Shown one piece after another: positions 2,233-36,979 of a DNA stretch of 39,275 bases (its first letter is position 1; the number at the start of each line of letters is the position of its first letter). The DNA comes from a virus. The position numbers and the translations under genes are program-made. The stretch covers positions 1 through 39,275 of IMG/VR virus record IMGVR_UViG_3300035158_000812. One strand, given 5' to 3'. A model generated the notes under the pieces. It worked only from the letters and a program-made list of their open reading frames with translations, was not told the origin of the DNA and made no database searches.

Positions 2233-3228
2233 ATGCGTATATATCAAGCTGGAGTAGCCAGCTACGGTTTGAGCTACCCAATTCTTATGGATATGCTTGA
2301 GAGAAGAGAAGTTTACACTCTTGAGTCATTCTGGTACACTTCCCGACTAATCAAAGCTTTTGAAAAATATCCCAACTTCAAAATTTTCTTAGACTCTGGA
2401 GCATATAGTTGGGATCATCAGATGACGAAGCAGGGAAAGACTGTCACAGAAAAAGATGAGAATGACTATTTAAATAGATATATAGAATTTATTAAGAAGT
2501 ATGAAGATAGATTATATGTATATGCTAATTTAGATTTTGTAGGTGACCCGGAAAAGACACAAAGGATGCAAGATAAAATGGAAGCTGCTGGATTGCATCC
2601 TACTCCAGTTTTTCATTATACTGCTGCTCAAGGAAAGTATGGTGGAGTTCAAGAAGAGCATTTCAAACATTTGAAAAGAATAGTTGAACGATATGATTAC
2701 TTAGCTCTTGGCGGTGGAGTTAGCGGTGGCTTATTTAGTTATAAGTATATGACATTGTTTGGAAAGAAAGCGTGGAAGATCATTAAGTCCGTTGGAAGAC
2801 CTATTAAAGTTCACGGATTCGGTTTAACTTCTGTTCCAGTTATGCTTAGATATGATTGGTATTCTGTTGATAGTACCAACTGGATAAAAAGTGCAGCTTA
2901 TGGTATAGTGTATATGCCAAGATTTCATCCTAAAACTCACGAACCTTTATATCATGAAATTCCAAGACGGTTTGCTGTTTCTGCAGTAGCTAAACATAAA
3001 GATACAGTAGCATCACATTATGAAAATGAATTTCAAGGAGACAAAGCTTCACATAAGGAAATTGAAGATTATTTTGAATCTATTGGTATTGATATGGAAA
3101 AGATGGAAGAAACTGCAATTGAGAGAGTTTTAGCTAATTTTAAGTATTTTAATAATTTCTTAGAGCATAGGGAAAAGTATTATCCAAATGGCATAGTTGA
3201 TAAAAAGTCAACTAATAAATTCTTTTAG
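2233..3228 (+). CDS. dpdA: DpdA-like DNA-guanine transglycosylase (TGT superfamily)
   Basis: A 331-residue protein of the tRNA-guanine transglycosylase superfamily in the short phage form. Visible landmarks are FLDSGAYSWD near residue 51, the barrel segment YLALGGGVSGG around residue 155, and VHGFGLTSVPVML leading into WYSVDSTNW, where TGTs carry their active-site aspartate. DpdA enzymes swap guanine in DNA for a 7-deazaguanine base. Linked QueC (616) and QueD (18967) genes support a DNA rather than tRNA substrate. The usual C-terminal zinc site of bacterial TGT is not evident. QueE and GTP cyclohydrolase are not in the window and may be elsewhere or supplied by the host. Confidence 0.82.
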   Translation: MRIYQAGVASYGLSYPILMDMLERREVYTLESFWYTSRLIKAFEKYPNFKIFLDSGAYSWDHQMTKQGKTVTEKDENDYLNRYIEFIKKYEDRLYVYANLDFVGDPEKTQRMQDKMEAAGLHPTPVFHYTAAQGKYGGVQEEHFKHLKRIVERYDYLALGGGVSGGLFSYKYMTLFGKKAWKIIKSVGRPIKVHGFGLTSVPVMLRYDWYSVDSTNWIKSAAYGIVYMPRFHPKTHEPLYHEIPRRFAVSAVAKHKDTVASHYENEFQGDKASHKEIEDYFESIGIDMEKMEETAIERVLANFKYFNNFLEHREKYYPNGIVDKKSTNKFF

Positions 3229-4330: not shown

Positions 4331-7000
4331 ATGGCTAAAAAACAGCAAGCTTTCTTTATGAGTTCATGGGATAAATATCAAAAAGATAATCCCGAGAAAT
4401 TTGTAAGGCGAAAAGCGGCTCCAAGAACTGGGACATCAAAAGCATCTACTAAAAAAGTATATGATTGTGAAACTTGCGGTTTGTATAAAAGTTGTAGAAG
4501 TCCTAAGATGGAAAGATTTGGGGAAGGCAAAGAAGGAATTTTAATTGTTGGTCAAAGCCCATCTAAAAGAGCAGATAGAGATAATCTTCCAATATCAGGT
4601 CCTTCTTTTCGTCTTCTACAAAAAATGATGAGCTACGTTGGCATAGACTTAGATAGAGATTGCTGGATGACAAATATTGTTCAATGCTACGCTGGTTGTG
4701 ATAAAAAAGGTAAAGATAAAGACCCTTCAAAGAATCAGTATAAATGTTGCAGAGATAGATTATTAAAAGATATTGAAGAGACTAAACCTAAGTTAATTAT
4801 ATGTTTTGGTGCTCCAGCAATAAACGCTGTTATAACAACTGACCATTTAAAAGGTTTCACAGCTAATCAAATGCATGGAAAAGTTGTACCCTATCATAAA
4901 TTTAATTGTTGGGTAGGTTGCTCTTTTCGTCCTGAGTTTTACGCATTTAGAAAAACTAAGAAAACTAAATATCCTGATGATGAAATTATTCTTGGATATG
5001 ATTTAGCAAATATAATTTCATATCTTGATCAACCTTTGCCGCAGCCTTTAACTACGGAGGGAAATGTTTGTGCTGATACGGTTCAATCAGCTCTTGATTT
5101 TATTGAGGGTTTTACTGATACTAATAGGCCAACGGCTTTCGATTATGAGTCAACTGGATTTTATCCTTGGATAGAAGGAGCAGAATTACTTTCAATATCT
5201 GTGAGTGATAATGTGGATTTGGGAGTATTTATTCCTTTGAAATTAAATCGAAGTGATGGTTCTCCTGTTTTTGATGATAGACAACAACATATAATTTTAG
5301 AAGCTTGGAAAACATTCTTAAAAAGTAGTACTCCAAAAGTAGTACAGAATGTTAATATGGAAGAAATATGGAATAGGATGTGGATACATCAACGTTCCAG
5401 TAATATTATTCATGACACGATGGTCGCAGCTCATGTGATAAATAATAATTCATATACTACTGGCTTAGGTTTTCAAGCATATATGTTAACTGGACATGAT
5501 TACAAAGGTATGATTGACATTAGAAAATTAGCAGAAGAGCCTATAGAAAAGACTTGTGATTACAATGGATGGGATTCAAGATATACTTTGTTGTCTTATG
5601 AAAATCAAAAGAGAATGTTAGAGGAGGATCCAAGATTAGAAGAGTTTTATAAATTTTATCATCAAGGTGCTTTGGAATTAGTGAATCTACGTGAGCGTGG
5701 AAATAAAATTGATTTGAAGTTTTTGAAGGAACTTGAGGATAAGTATTTGAGGGAACGAGAAATAAGGATGCAAGAGATGCGTTCACTTGAAGGTGTTCGT
5801 AAATATGAAGAAGAGTTTGATTGTGAATTTAATCCTGATTCTACAAAGCATCTTCGATACATCATGTATGATTACTATAAGTTAGAAAAATATAAAATGA
5901 CTTCAACTGGAGGTTCAACAGATAAAGAAACGTTGGGTATTATTCTCGAGAAGACAGAGAATAAGGATGTTAAAAAATTAATCAAAGCTCTTATGCGGTT
6001 TAGAAAGACGTGTAGTTTAACAGAGAGGGTGACTAATTATAGAAATGTTATGGATTCTAAAGGCTATGTGCATCCTTCTTATAACTTAAATATGGCTGAT
6101 ACATATAGGTCTTCTTGTTGTGATCCAAATATTCAAAATGTATTTAAGCATGATAAAGAGCTTATAATATTTAGGAAAGCTATCGTTCCATCTACTGGAA
6201 GAATATTATTGGAAGTTGACCATGCGGGCATGGAAGTTAAAGGAATTGCTATGGCCTCTGGTGATCCCGAATTGATTCGACAAATCAAGGAAGGAGTAAA
6301 ATGGACAAAAGCTCATCCAGAAGGTGGGAAGAATCCTTGGGATACTCATTATAGATGGGCGGCAAGAGTATATTCAAAGCCAGTAGATGAGGTAACTAAG
6401 GATGAAAGGTATGTTGGAAAGAATGGATTTGTATTTCCAAGTTTTTATGGTTCAATAGATAAGGCTGTTGCACGTTCATTTCCAAAAATTTCAATGGAGC
6501 ATGTATGCCAAGTTCAGAAAGAATTTTGGGAAGAGTATCATTATGTTAGAGAATGGCAAAATAAAGTAATTCATGACTACTTAAAGAATGGATATGTCAC
6601 AGCATTGAATGGTTGGAGAAGAGTTGGGCCACTGACTATTAATCAGCTATATAATAATTTAATTCAAGGTGTTTCTTTTCATGTTCTTTTGCAGGCATTG
6701 ATAAAAATAGGTATTGAGTTTAAGAGAAGAAAGCTTATGACAGAAGCCAATTCTGAGGTACACGATTCTATTTTATTCAATACTGTGCCAGAAGAACATG
6801 AAGAAGTAATCAATGTAGCTACGGAAATAATGTGTTCTAAGCATTATGATTTTCAGCGAGATATTCCTTTGGGTGTTGACTGGGAAATAGGATTAAGGAA
6901 TTGGTATGATATGCGTCCAATTGAAATTAATAATTCTGGTAAGTTTGTAGATATTGATGAAAGTAGGATTAAACTTGAAGATTTTATCTTTTCAACATAA
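4331..7000 (+). CDS. Family A DNA polymerase with N-terminal UDG-like and 3'-5' exonuclease domains
   Basis: An 889-residue replicative polymerase. Residues about 45-215 resemble a family 4-type uracil-DNA glycosylase: CETCGLYKSC, ILIVGQSPS, a CCRDRL cysteine pair and ICFGAPA. The exonuclease starts near residue 268 with FDYESTG (the DxE motif). The polymerase part shows motif A as EVDHAGMEVKG near 627, motif B around GFVFPSFYGS near 698, and motif C as EVHDS near 809. The same UDG-exo-Pol arrangement is known from phage SPO1. All catalytic motifs look intact. It lies 10 bases after the clamp gene. Confidence 0.93.
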   Translation: MAKKQQAFFMSSWDKYQKDNPEKFVRRKAAPRTGTSKASTKKVYDCETCGLYKSCRSPKMERFGEGKEGILIVGQSPSKRADRDNLPISGPSFRLLQKMMSYVGIDLDRDCWMTNIVQCYAGCDKKGKDKDPSKNQYKCCRDRLLKDIEETKPKLIICFGAPAINAVITTDHLKGFTANQMHGKVVPYHKFNCWVGCSFRPEFYAFRKTKKTKYPDDEIILGYDLANIISYLDQPLPQPLTTEGNVCADTVQSALDFIEGFTDTNRPTAFDYESTGFYPWIEGAELLSISVSDNVDLGVFIPLKLNRSDGSPVFDDRQQHIILEAWKTFLKSSTPKVVQNVNMEEIWNRMWIHQRSSNIIHDTMVAAHVINNNSYTTGLGFQAYMLTGHDYKGMIDIRKLAEEPIEKTCDYNGWDSRYTLLSYENQKRMLEEDPRLEEFYKFYHQGALELVNLRERGNKIDLKFLKELEDKYLREREIRMQEMRSLEGVRKYEEEFDCEFNPDSTKHLRYIMYDYYKLEKYKMTSTGGSTDKETLGIILEKTENKDVKKLIKALMRFRKTCSLTERVTNYRNVMDSKGYVHPSYNLNMADTYRSSCCDPNIQNVFKHDKELIIFRKAIVPSTGRILLEVDHAGMEVKGIAMASGDPELIRQIKEGVKWTKAHPEGGKNPWDTHYRWAARVYSKPVDEVTKDERYVGKNGFVFPSFYGSIDKAVARSFPKISMEHVCQVQKEFWEEYHYVREWQNKVIHDYLKNGYVTALNGWRRVGPLTINQLYNNLIQGVSFHVLLQALIKIGIEFKRRKLMTEANSEVHDSILFNTVPEEHEEVINVATEIMCSKHYDFQRDIPLGVDWEIGLRNWYDMRPIEINNSGKFVDIDESRIKLEDFIFST

Positions 7001-36433: not shown

Positions 36434-36625
36434 ATGAAATTTAAACAAACAGGAGATTCTTTATCCATCGTTTCTACTGGTGGATTAGATGCAGAATTTG
36501 AAGTGGAAACTTTAGAAGAGCTTTGGGATTTAGCTTTTGAGAAAGCAGTGATAATTTGCTTAGCACCGACTAAAACTAAAGTTGGAGAAAAGAAGTTTAC
36601 GATATTTCATCCTACTGATTATTGA
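36434..36625 (+). CDS. Small hypothetical protein
   Basis: A 63-residue acidic protein (MKFKQTGDSLSIVSTGGLDA) with GAGG upstream of the ATG. Last gene before the 159-base gap that holds the candidate RNA. Confidence 0.55.
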   Translation: MKFKQTGDSLSIVSTGGLDAEFEVETLEELWDLAFEKAVIICLAPTKTKVGEKKFTIFHPTDY

Positions 36626-36641
36626 GGAATGTAAATAACCC

Positions 36642-36764
36642 GACCGAGAGGTGGATGGGAATATTGATAGGACAGTCGGCGGTTCTATTGGTTGTCTATC
36701 TACTCAGAATGTATGATGGACTTTGCAGAATCCGCATACAGCAGGAGCAGAGCCTGCCTCGGCC
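36642..36764 (+). ncRNA. Candidate structured RNA with a four-way junction
   Basis: The only long gap in a tightly packed stretch, and by eye much more G+C-rich than its surroundings. It folds by hand into four helices. P1: 36642-36648 with 36758-36764 (six of seven pairs, core CCGAG/CTCGG). P2: 36650-36659 with 36695-36704 (ten pairs with several G-U), extended by P2b: 36663-36672 with 36683-36692. P3: 36710-36715 with 36735-36740 (TGTATG/CATACA), plus GGA/TCC inside. P4: 36741-36745 with 36753-36757 (GCAGG/CCTGC) around a 7-base loop. P3, P4 and P1' stack without gaps, as in a cloverleaf, but there is no tRNA T-loop. A ribosome site (TTGGAGAG) for the gene at 36785 follows directly, so it could be a free RNA or a leader element. 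A 38-codon frame inside (36655-36771) is the main alternative. Confidence 0.55.
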
Positions 36765-36784
36765 ATTTTAATTTTGGAGAGATT

Positions 36785-36979
36785 ATGGGATTACCATTTA
36801 AGATATTTGTTGAAGTGGATGGTGTGAAAAAGGAAGTTTCTTTTGAAGAACCCCGAACTGGTATATTAACATTAGGAGAGATGGTAGATTTACATCGAGC
36901 TCATGGTTCAGAATTAGAAAAGGAATTGGCTCTAATTATTGGTAGACAAGTAATGAGAACGGTGGAAGATGAGAAATAA
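36785..36979 (+). CDS. Small hypothetical protein
   Basis: A 64-residue protein from the ATG at 36785, placed five bases after GGAGA. Text: MGLPFKIFVEVDGVKKEVSF and LTLGEMVDLHRAHGSELEKE. The frame is open upstream to 36692, but that part overlaps the structured region and lacks a start site, so the short form is preferred. Confidence 0.6.
   Translation: MGLPFKIFVEVDGVKKEVSFEEPRTGILTLGEMVDLHRAHGSELEKELALIIGRQVMRTVEDEK

Follow-up and report, generated by a model that had tools for sequence, protein, structure and literature searches.

Does the gap between two small genes at 36626-36784 of this viral genome hold a structured RNA, a small gene, or a transcript that is both? The window, by which we mean the whole stretch analysed (39,275 bases of a linear IMG/VR record, 34.4% G+C), covers part of a larger tailed-virus genome. 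An earlier note had proposed that positions 36642-36764, here called the element, form a new structured RNA in a gap with no convincing gene.

The gap and its genomic setting

The genes that place the locus, and the gap itself, are as follows.

616-1611, QueC-like gene
2233-3228, queuine tRNA-ribosyltransferase-like (TGT-like) gene
3238, clamp-like processivity factor
4331-7000, family-A DNA polymerase (PolA) with a uracil-DNA-glycosylase-like N-terminus
20667, terminase
31242, DAHP synthase
36434-36625, + strand, upstream gene, 63 aa, without family
36626-36784, + strand, gap between annotated-quality genes, in a variable block and without counterpart in relatives
36785-36979, + strand, downstream gene, 64 aa, weakly like a segment of major capsid protein
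37586, portal gene, running past the right end of the window
Also in the window, an RlaP-like protein, a DHH protein and a methyltransferase fragment

The gap was confirmed, bounded by the gene end at 36625 and the gene start at 36785, as was its G+C richness relative to the surroundings. The element has 51.2% G+C compared with 34.4% for the window, essentially the maximum, as only ~4 of 39,150 stretches of 123 nt reach this value. Gaps are scarce in this genome, which is 97% coding, and this one makes up 0.4% of the window. No inverted repeats were found as insertion scars.

Relatives were retrieved via PolA (L002-L014) and via the portal (L015-L035). The fullest is the 179-kb contig JAHQJS010000001.1 (L159, L170-L178), assigned to a MAG with the label Candidatus Borrarchaeum weybense. 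It is mostly collinear with the window between 81 and 32042, then again at the portal. This contig carries portal, terminase and capsid genes and ~12 tRNAs; it is binned with Candidatus Borrarchaeum (Asgard) and is either a virus of that lineage or a mis-binned phage. In the two closest relatives, L030 and L017 (portal identity 84-86% in the best segment), the block from the PD-(D/E)XK or DAHP synthase gene to the portal contains different small genes and no counterpart of the element. Inspection by position of the region preceding the portal in L017, L027, L029, L030, L032 and L034 likewise found no structured counterpart; a large ‘gap’ in L034 is a portal insertion resembling an intein. The small-gene block upstream of the portal changes fast between relatives. 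The proteins of both neighbouring genes also lack relatives in IMG/VR, so the absence of counterparts shows a variable block and not an unreal RNA. For the 36785-36979 protein, the likeness to a segment of the relatives' major capsid protein amounts to 36% over 39 residues in the 179-kb contig and 36% over 33 residues in L026.

Other G+C-rich gaps in the relatives hold several tRNA genes, a YopX-like gene and weak folds. One is a patch of ~200 nt downstream of a folE-like gene (L177 17430-17660, minus strand), in which neither an obvious gene nor an Rfam match nor a stable fold was seen; another stretch, L032 15083-15226, has no scored gene and folds unusually well (z -3.8, 0 of 200 shuffles).

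Predicted fold of the element

The energy-model minimum comprises the following parts.

36642-36764, + strand, folded element, predicted four-way junction
36644-36648, + strand, P1 5' strand CCGAG, pairing with 36758-36762 (5 pairs, pair probability 0.98-1.0)
36650-36704, + strand, P2/P2b arm (P2 36650-36659/36695-36704, P2b 36663-36673/36682-36692)
36674-36681, + strand, P2b loop AGUCGGCG
36710-36740, + strand, P3 hairpin (36710-36720/36731-36740, bulge at 36716)
36741-36757, + strand, P4 hairpin GCAGG-AGCAGAG-CCUGC (36741-36745/36753-36757, 5 pairs, 7-nt loop)
36758-36762, + strand, P1 3' strand CUCGG, followed by CCA at 36763-36765

This structure has a predicted energy of -43.5 kcal/mol, a mean pair probability of 0.93 and an ensemble diversity of 8. 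It equals the P1-P4 fold previously drawn by hand, including the ten pairs of P2; P2b, however, has 11 pairs and not ten, and the junction that had been described as almost free of unpaired bases has six (A36649 and 36705-36709).

For this interval, which like all element and frame features was picked after the fact, stability relative to dinucleotide shuffles gave z values of -2.5 to -2.7 (-2.67 with 3000 shuffles, 31 of which were as stable). The excess stability therefore holds for 36642-36764, but it is weak for 36626-36790 (z -1.45). A tight spanning four-way junction arose in 3 of 3000 shuffles, 0 of them as stable as the element. Scanning the window on both strands gave a mean z of -0.19 (sd 1.12), and at least 14 of ~643 plus-strand windows of the same genome had z below -2.8. 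The fold is thus unexceptional genome-wide, where a few percent of ordinary coding stretches fold as unusually. The z value also falls among those of tRNAs from the relatives (median -2.1), which fits a real RNA without proving one.

The sense strand folds 11 kcal/mol better than the antisense. The fold holds with flanks of up to 80 nt (0.88), while with 100 nt a long-range alternative beats it by 2.6 kcal/mol, a difference within model error. Real tRNAs of the relatives kept 0.0-0.92 of their pairs in the same flank test.

Homologue searches and likeness to tRNA

No homologue of the element was found by blastn in phages and plasmids, by a single-sequence covariance model over 20-odd relatives with filters on and off, or in 195 genomes of the archaeal phylum of the Borrarchaeum MAG, and the genome itself holds no further copy. 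Three DNA pattern scans of IMG/VR gave no true homologue among the matches listed; covariance-model and pairing checks assigned these matches to chance. At both gathering and permissive Rfam thresholds the element matched no known family. The results support a four-way junction that is stable in local folding and coincides with a G+C peak; as a new structured RNA, with no homologue found in which P1-P4 could covary, it is a candidate.

The element shares with tRNAs and tRNA-like structures a cloverleaf topology, a 5-pair arm with a 7-nt loop beside the closing helix, and a CCA after it. The arrangement of P4 beside the P1 3' strand, as a T-arm lies beside an acceptor, was borne out as topology. 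The element differs in lacking a T-loop, a normal D or anticodon arm and a covariance-model match, and in having a P1 of just 5 pairs. Neither the tRNA covariance model (RF00005) nor ARAGORN matched it, and the T-loop consensus TTCRANY is absent from the P4 loop, which reads AGCAGAG; the view that it is not a normal tRNA was correct. Within the 179-kb relative, the best match of the single-sequence covariance model was a tRNA-Leu (16 bits, E 0.086) whose T-stem, GCAGG/CCTGC, is identical to P4. Alignment of the element with this tRNA-Leu gave p = 0.009 alone and p = 0.10 after correction over all tRNAs tested. The suggestion of a tRNA mimic thus reduces to a topological likeness, and a derived tRNA or tRNA mimic, which would account for the P4-P1 arrangement, the shared T-stem and the CCA, is very improbable given the failed tRNA searches, the loop, the short P1 and the corrected p value. 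Among the relatives' tRNAs, L027 14289-14377 is called tRNA-Ser(TGA) by ARAGORN, whereas its best Rfam match is the selenocysteine tRNA model (47.9 vs a threshold of 47).

The idea of a leader for the gene at 36785 gained no positive evidence. In the predicted fold of 36600-36830 the Shine-Dalgarno sequence of this gene is mostly free (unpaired 0.85), and its AUG is predicted to be paired. No promoter or terminator belonging to the element was found, promoter-like sites being below chance, and an antisense promoter-like site at 36828-36800 is at chance level only.

An open frame overlapping the fold

Two further features overlap the element.

36648-36653, + strand, Shine-Dalgarno-like GAGGUG, 1 nt from the AUG at 36655 (GAGG core 3 nt), within P1/P2
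36655-36771, + strand, open frame, 38 aa, MGILIGQSAVLLVVYLLRMYDGLCRIRIQQEQSLPRPF, with one hydrophobic segment and a cationic C-terminal half

Contrary to the claim that the gap has no convincing gene, this frame has a Shine-Dalgarno match and a transmembrane-like segment and is a better gene candidate than had been allowed. The hydrophobic segment has a mean Kyte-Doolittle value of 2.23 over 17 residues, a level reached by 0.14% of shuffles and by 2.8% of pieces of this genome read in a wrong frame; such a segment together with an open frame of at least 38 codons occurred in 0.06% of shuffles. The Shine-Dalgarno energy is -6.7, with a median of -5.8 for real genes here and a 5% quantile of -6.8 for random sites, and the spacing to the AUG is short. 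The distances to the neighbouring genes, 29 and 13 nt, are typical of the surrounding block.

Codon use is less gene-like. The codon score of the frame (-0.42, GC3 0.50) is lower than that of any of the window's 32 small genes. L030 carries a YopX-like gene (E 3e-10 to Pfam YopX) with a similar score (-0.40, GC3 0.47); since this foreign gene is equally atypical, the codon use of the frame is compatible with an acquired gene. Scored with a model that had learned from viral genes of 46-56% G+C, the frame resembles an open non-coding frame, at the 2nd percentile of real genes with a density ratio of 0.17. Searches of viral contigs, 85k species genomes, phages, Pfam, PHROGs and NCBIfam gave no homologue of the peptide.

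With peptide and codon counts fixed, 7 of 2000 synonymous permutations folded as stably (z -3.46); with the fold fixed, 0.24% of pair permutations yielded such a peptide. The fold is rare given the peptide and the peptide rare given the fold (~0.2-0.4% each), so each feature needs its own reason. Opening the start region of the frame costs 11.3 kcal/mol, compared with a median of 3.8 and a maximum of 10.0 for 38 real gene starts.

What the element may be

Our tentative preference, for a reading that we consider possible rather than probable, is a small gene for a membrane peptide, gained from elsewhere, with a start site that the folding of its mRNA closes off. The element would be a recent accessory acquisition in the variable block of small genes that precedes the portal, encoding a single-pass membrane peptide in 38 codons. 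Presumably transcribed within a polycistronic message, it would fold as the four-way junction with P1/P2 enclosing the ribosome-binding site and the AUG at 36655, and peptide output would stay low while P1/P2 is closed. Ribosomes ending the gene at 36625, processing or an antisense partner might open P1/P2, whereupon the peptide would be translated and insert into the host membrane.

The mode of action proposed here is that of type I toxin messengers and of small, regulated peptides for lysis or exclusion. In type I toxin messengers the ribosome-binding site and start are buried in the mRNA fold; the fold predicted here would cover the start site of the frame. Membrane type I toxins are shorter than 60 residues and combine a single hydrophobic helix with cationic residues at the C-terminus (PMC8309996), and the 38-residue peptide is like them in size, single hydrophobic helix and cationic C-terminal half. 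Unlike a type I toxin unit, the element lies within a co-directional viral gene block and has no sequence likeness to such units; the peptide matched no known type I toxin family in Pfam, NCBIfam or PHROGs, and membership is not claimed.

A non-coding structured RNA, either a stand-alone or processed viral RNA or an intercistronic element, in which the four-way junction would do the work and the open frame would have arisen by chance, is somewhat unlikely in itself and nearly as likely as the gated-peptide gene. It would explain why the G+C peak falls in a gap that is so small a part of the window, much as several G+C-rich gaps of the relatives are tRNA genes, and it agrees with a z value within the tRNA range, a tight junction seen in 0.1% of shuffles, the strand asymmetry in folding and the codon use of the frame. 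It is weakened by the failure of covariance model, blastn and patterns to find a homologue, and hence any covariation, by a fold that is unexceptional among coding windows and by the missing promoter or terminator, and it leaves unexplained a hydrophobic frame expected in 0.24% of cases given the fold. A bolder form, in which the element founds a previously unknown class of compact viral RNAs built on a four-way junction and is an accessory element of a tailed virus related to the 179-kb Asgard-binned contig, strikes us as improbable. Comparative genomics has revealed phage-borne structured RNAs, for example manA and wcaG in cyanophages (PMC2864571). Like these, the element is a candidate structured RNA that lies between genes of a virus; unlike them, defined by covariation across many homologues, it is one sequence.

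The peptide evidence (hydrophobic segment, Shine-Dalgarno match and codon use like that of the foreign YopX-like gene) would serve equally for an ordinary small foreign membrane-peptide gene with a fold incidental to its higher G+C. G+C-rich foreign genes are known in the clade, and the packing between neighbours fits. This reading is nonetheless doubtful, as the fold exceeds that of 99.65% of synonymous permutations and the start is more buried than any of the 38 real starts. Decay to a foreign fragment or spacer, neither functional RNA nor gene, accords with the lack of RNA and peptide homologues, the atypical composition and the fast turnover of the region between relatives, but is quite unlikely in a genome where gaps are so scarce and with fold and frame both intact.

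Collectively, the element appears to be a real but single-copy predicted fold, situated in a variable block, that can be read as an RNA or as a small gene. Should the peptide and the folding of its messenger both prove real, the locus would encode a membrane peptide gated by RNA structure, in a clade of viruses so far uncharted; should only the RNA prove real, it would add a new orphan to the viral RNAs. At present the case mainly shows that one sequence, however striking the fold drawn from it by hand, is not enough to tell an RNA from a small gene.

Other features of the virus clade

The QueC-like and TGT-like genes of the window, together with the folE-like gene of the 179-kb relative (L177 17739-18323, minus strand), suggest 7-deazaguanine modification of DNA or tRNA. 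The portal genes of L034 (8514-12520), L027, L029, L030 and L032 are broken by in-frame insertions, giving open frames of 782-997 codons; in L034 an intein-like sequence comes after the start of the portal. This suggests several portal inteins among the relatives.

More striking than the folded element is a permuted family-A DNA polymerase core in three relatives (L006 1142-3793; L005/L011 7123-4472, minus strand; L007 18-1877). In these, the C-terminal block with the VHDS motif (residues 787-886 of the window PolA) precedes the motif A/B block (624-792) within one open frame, whereas the window PolA and that of L002 have the normal block order.
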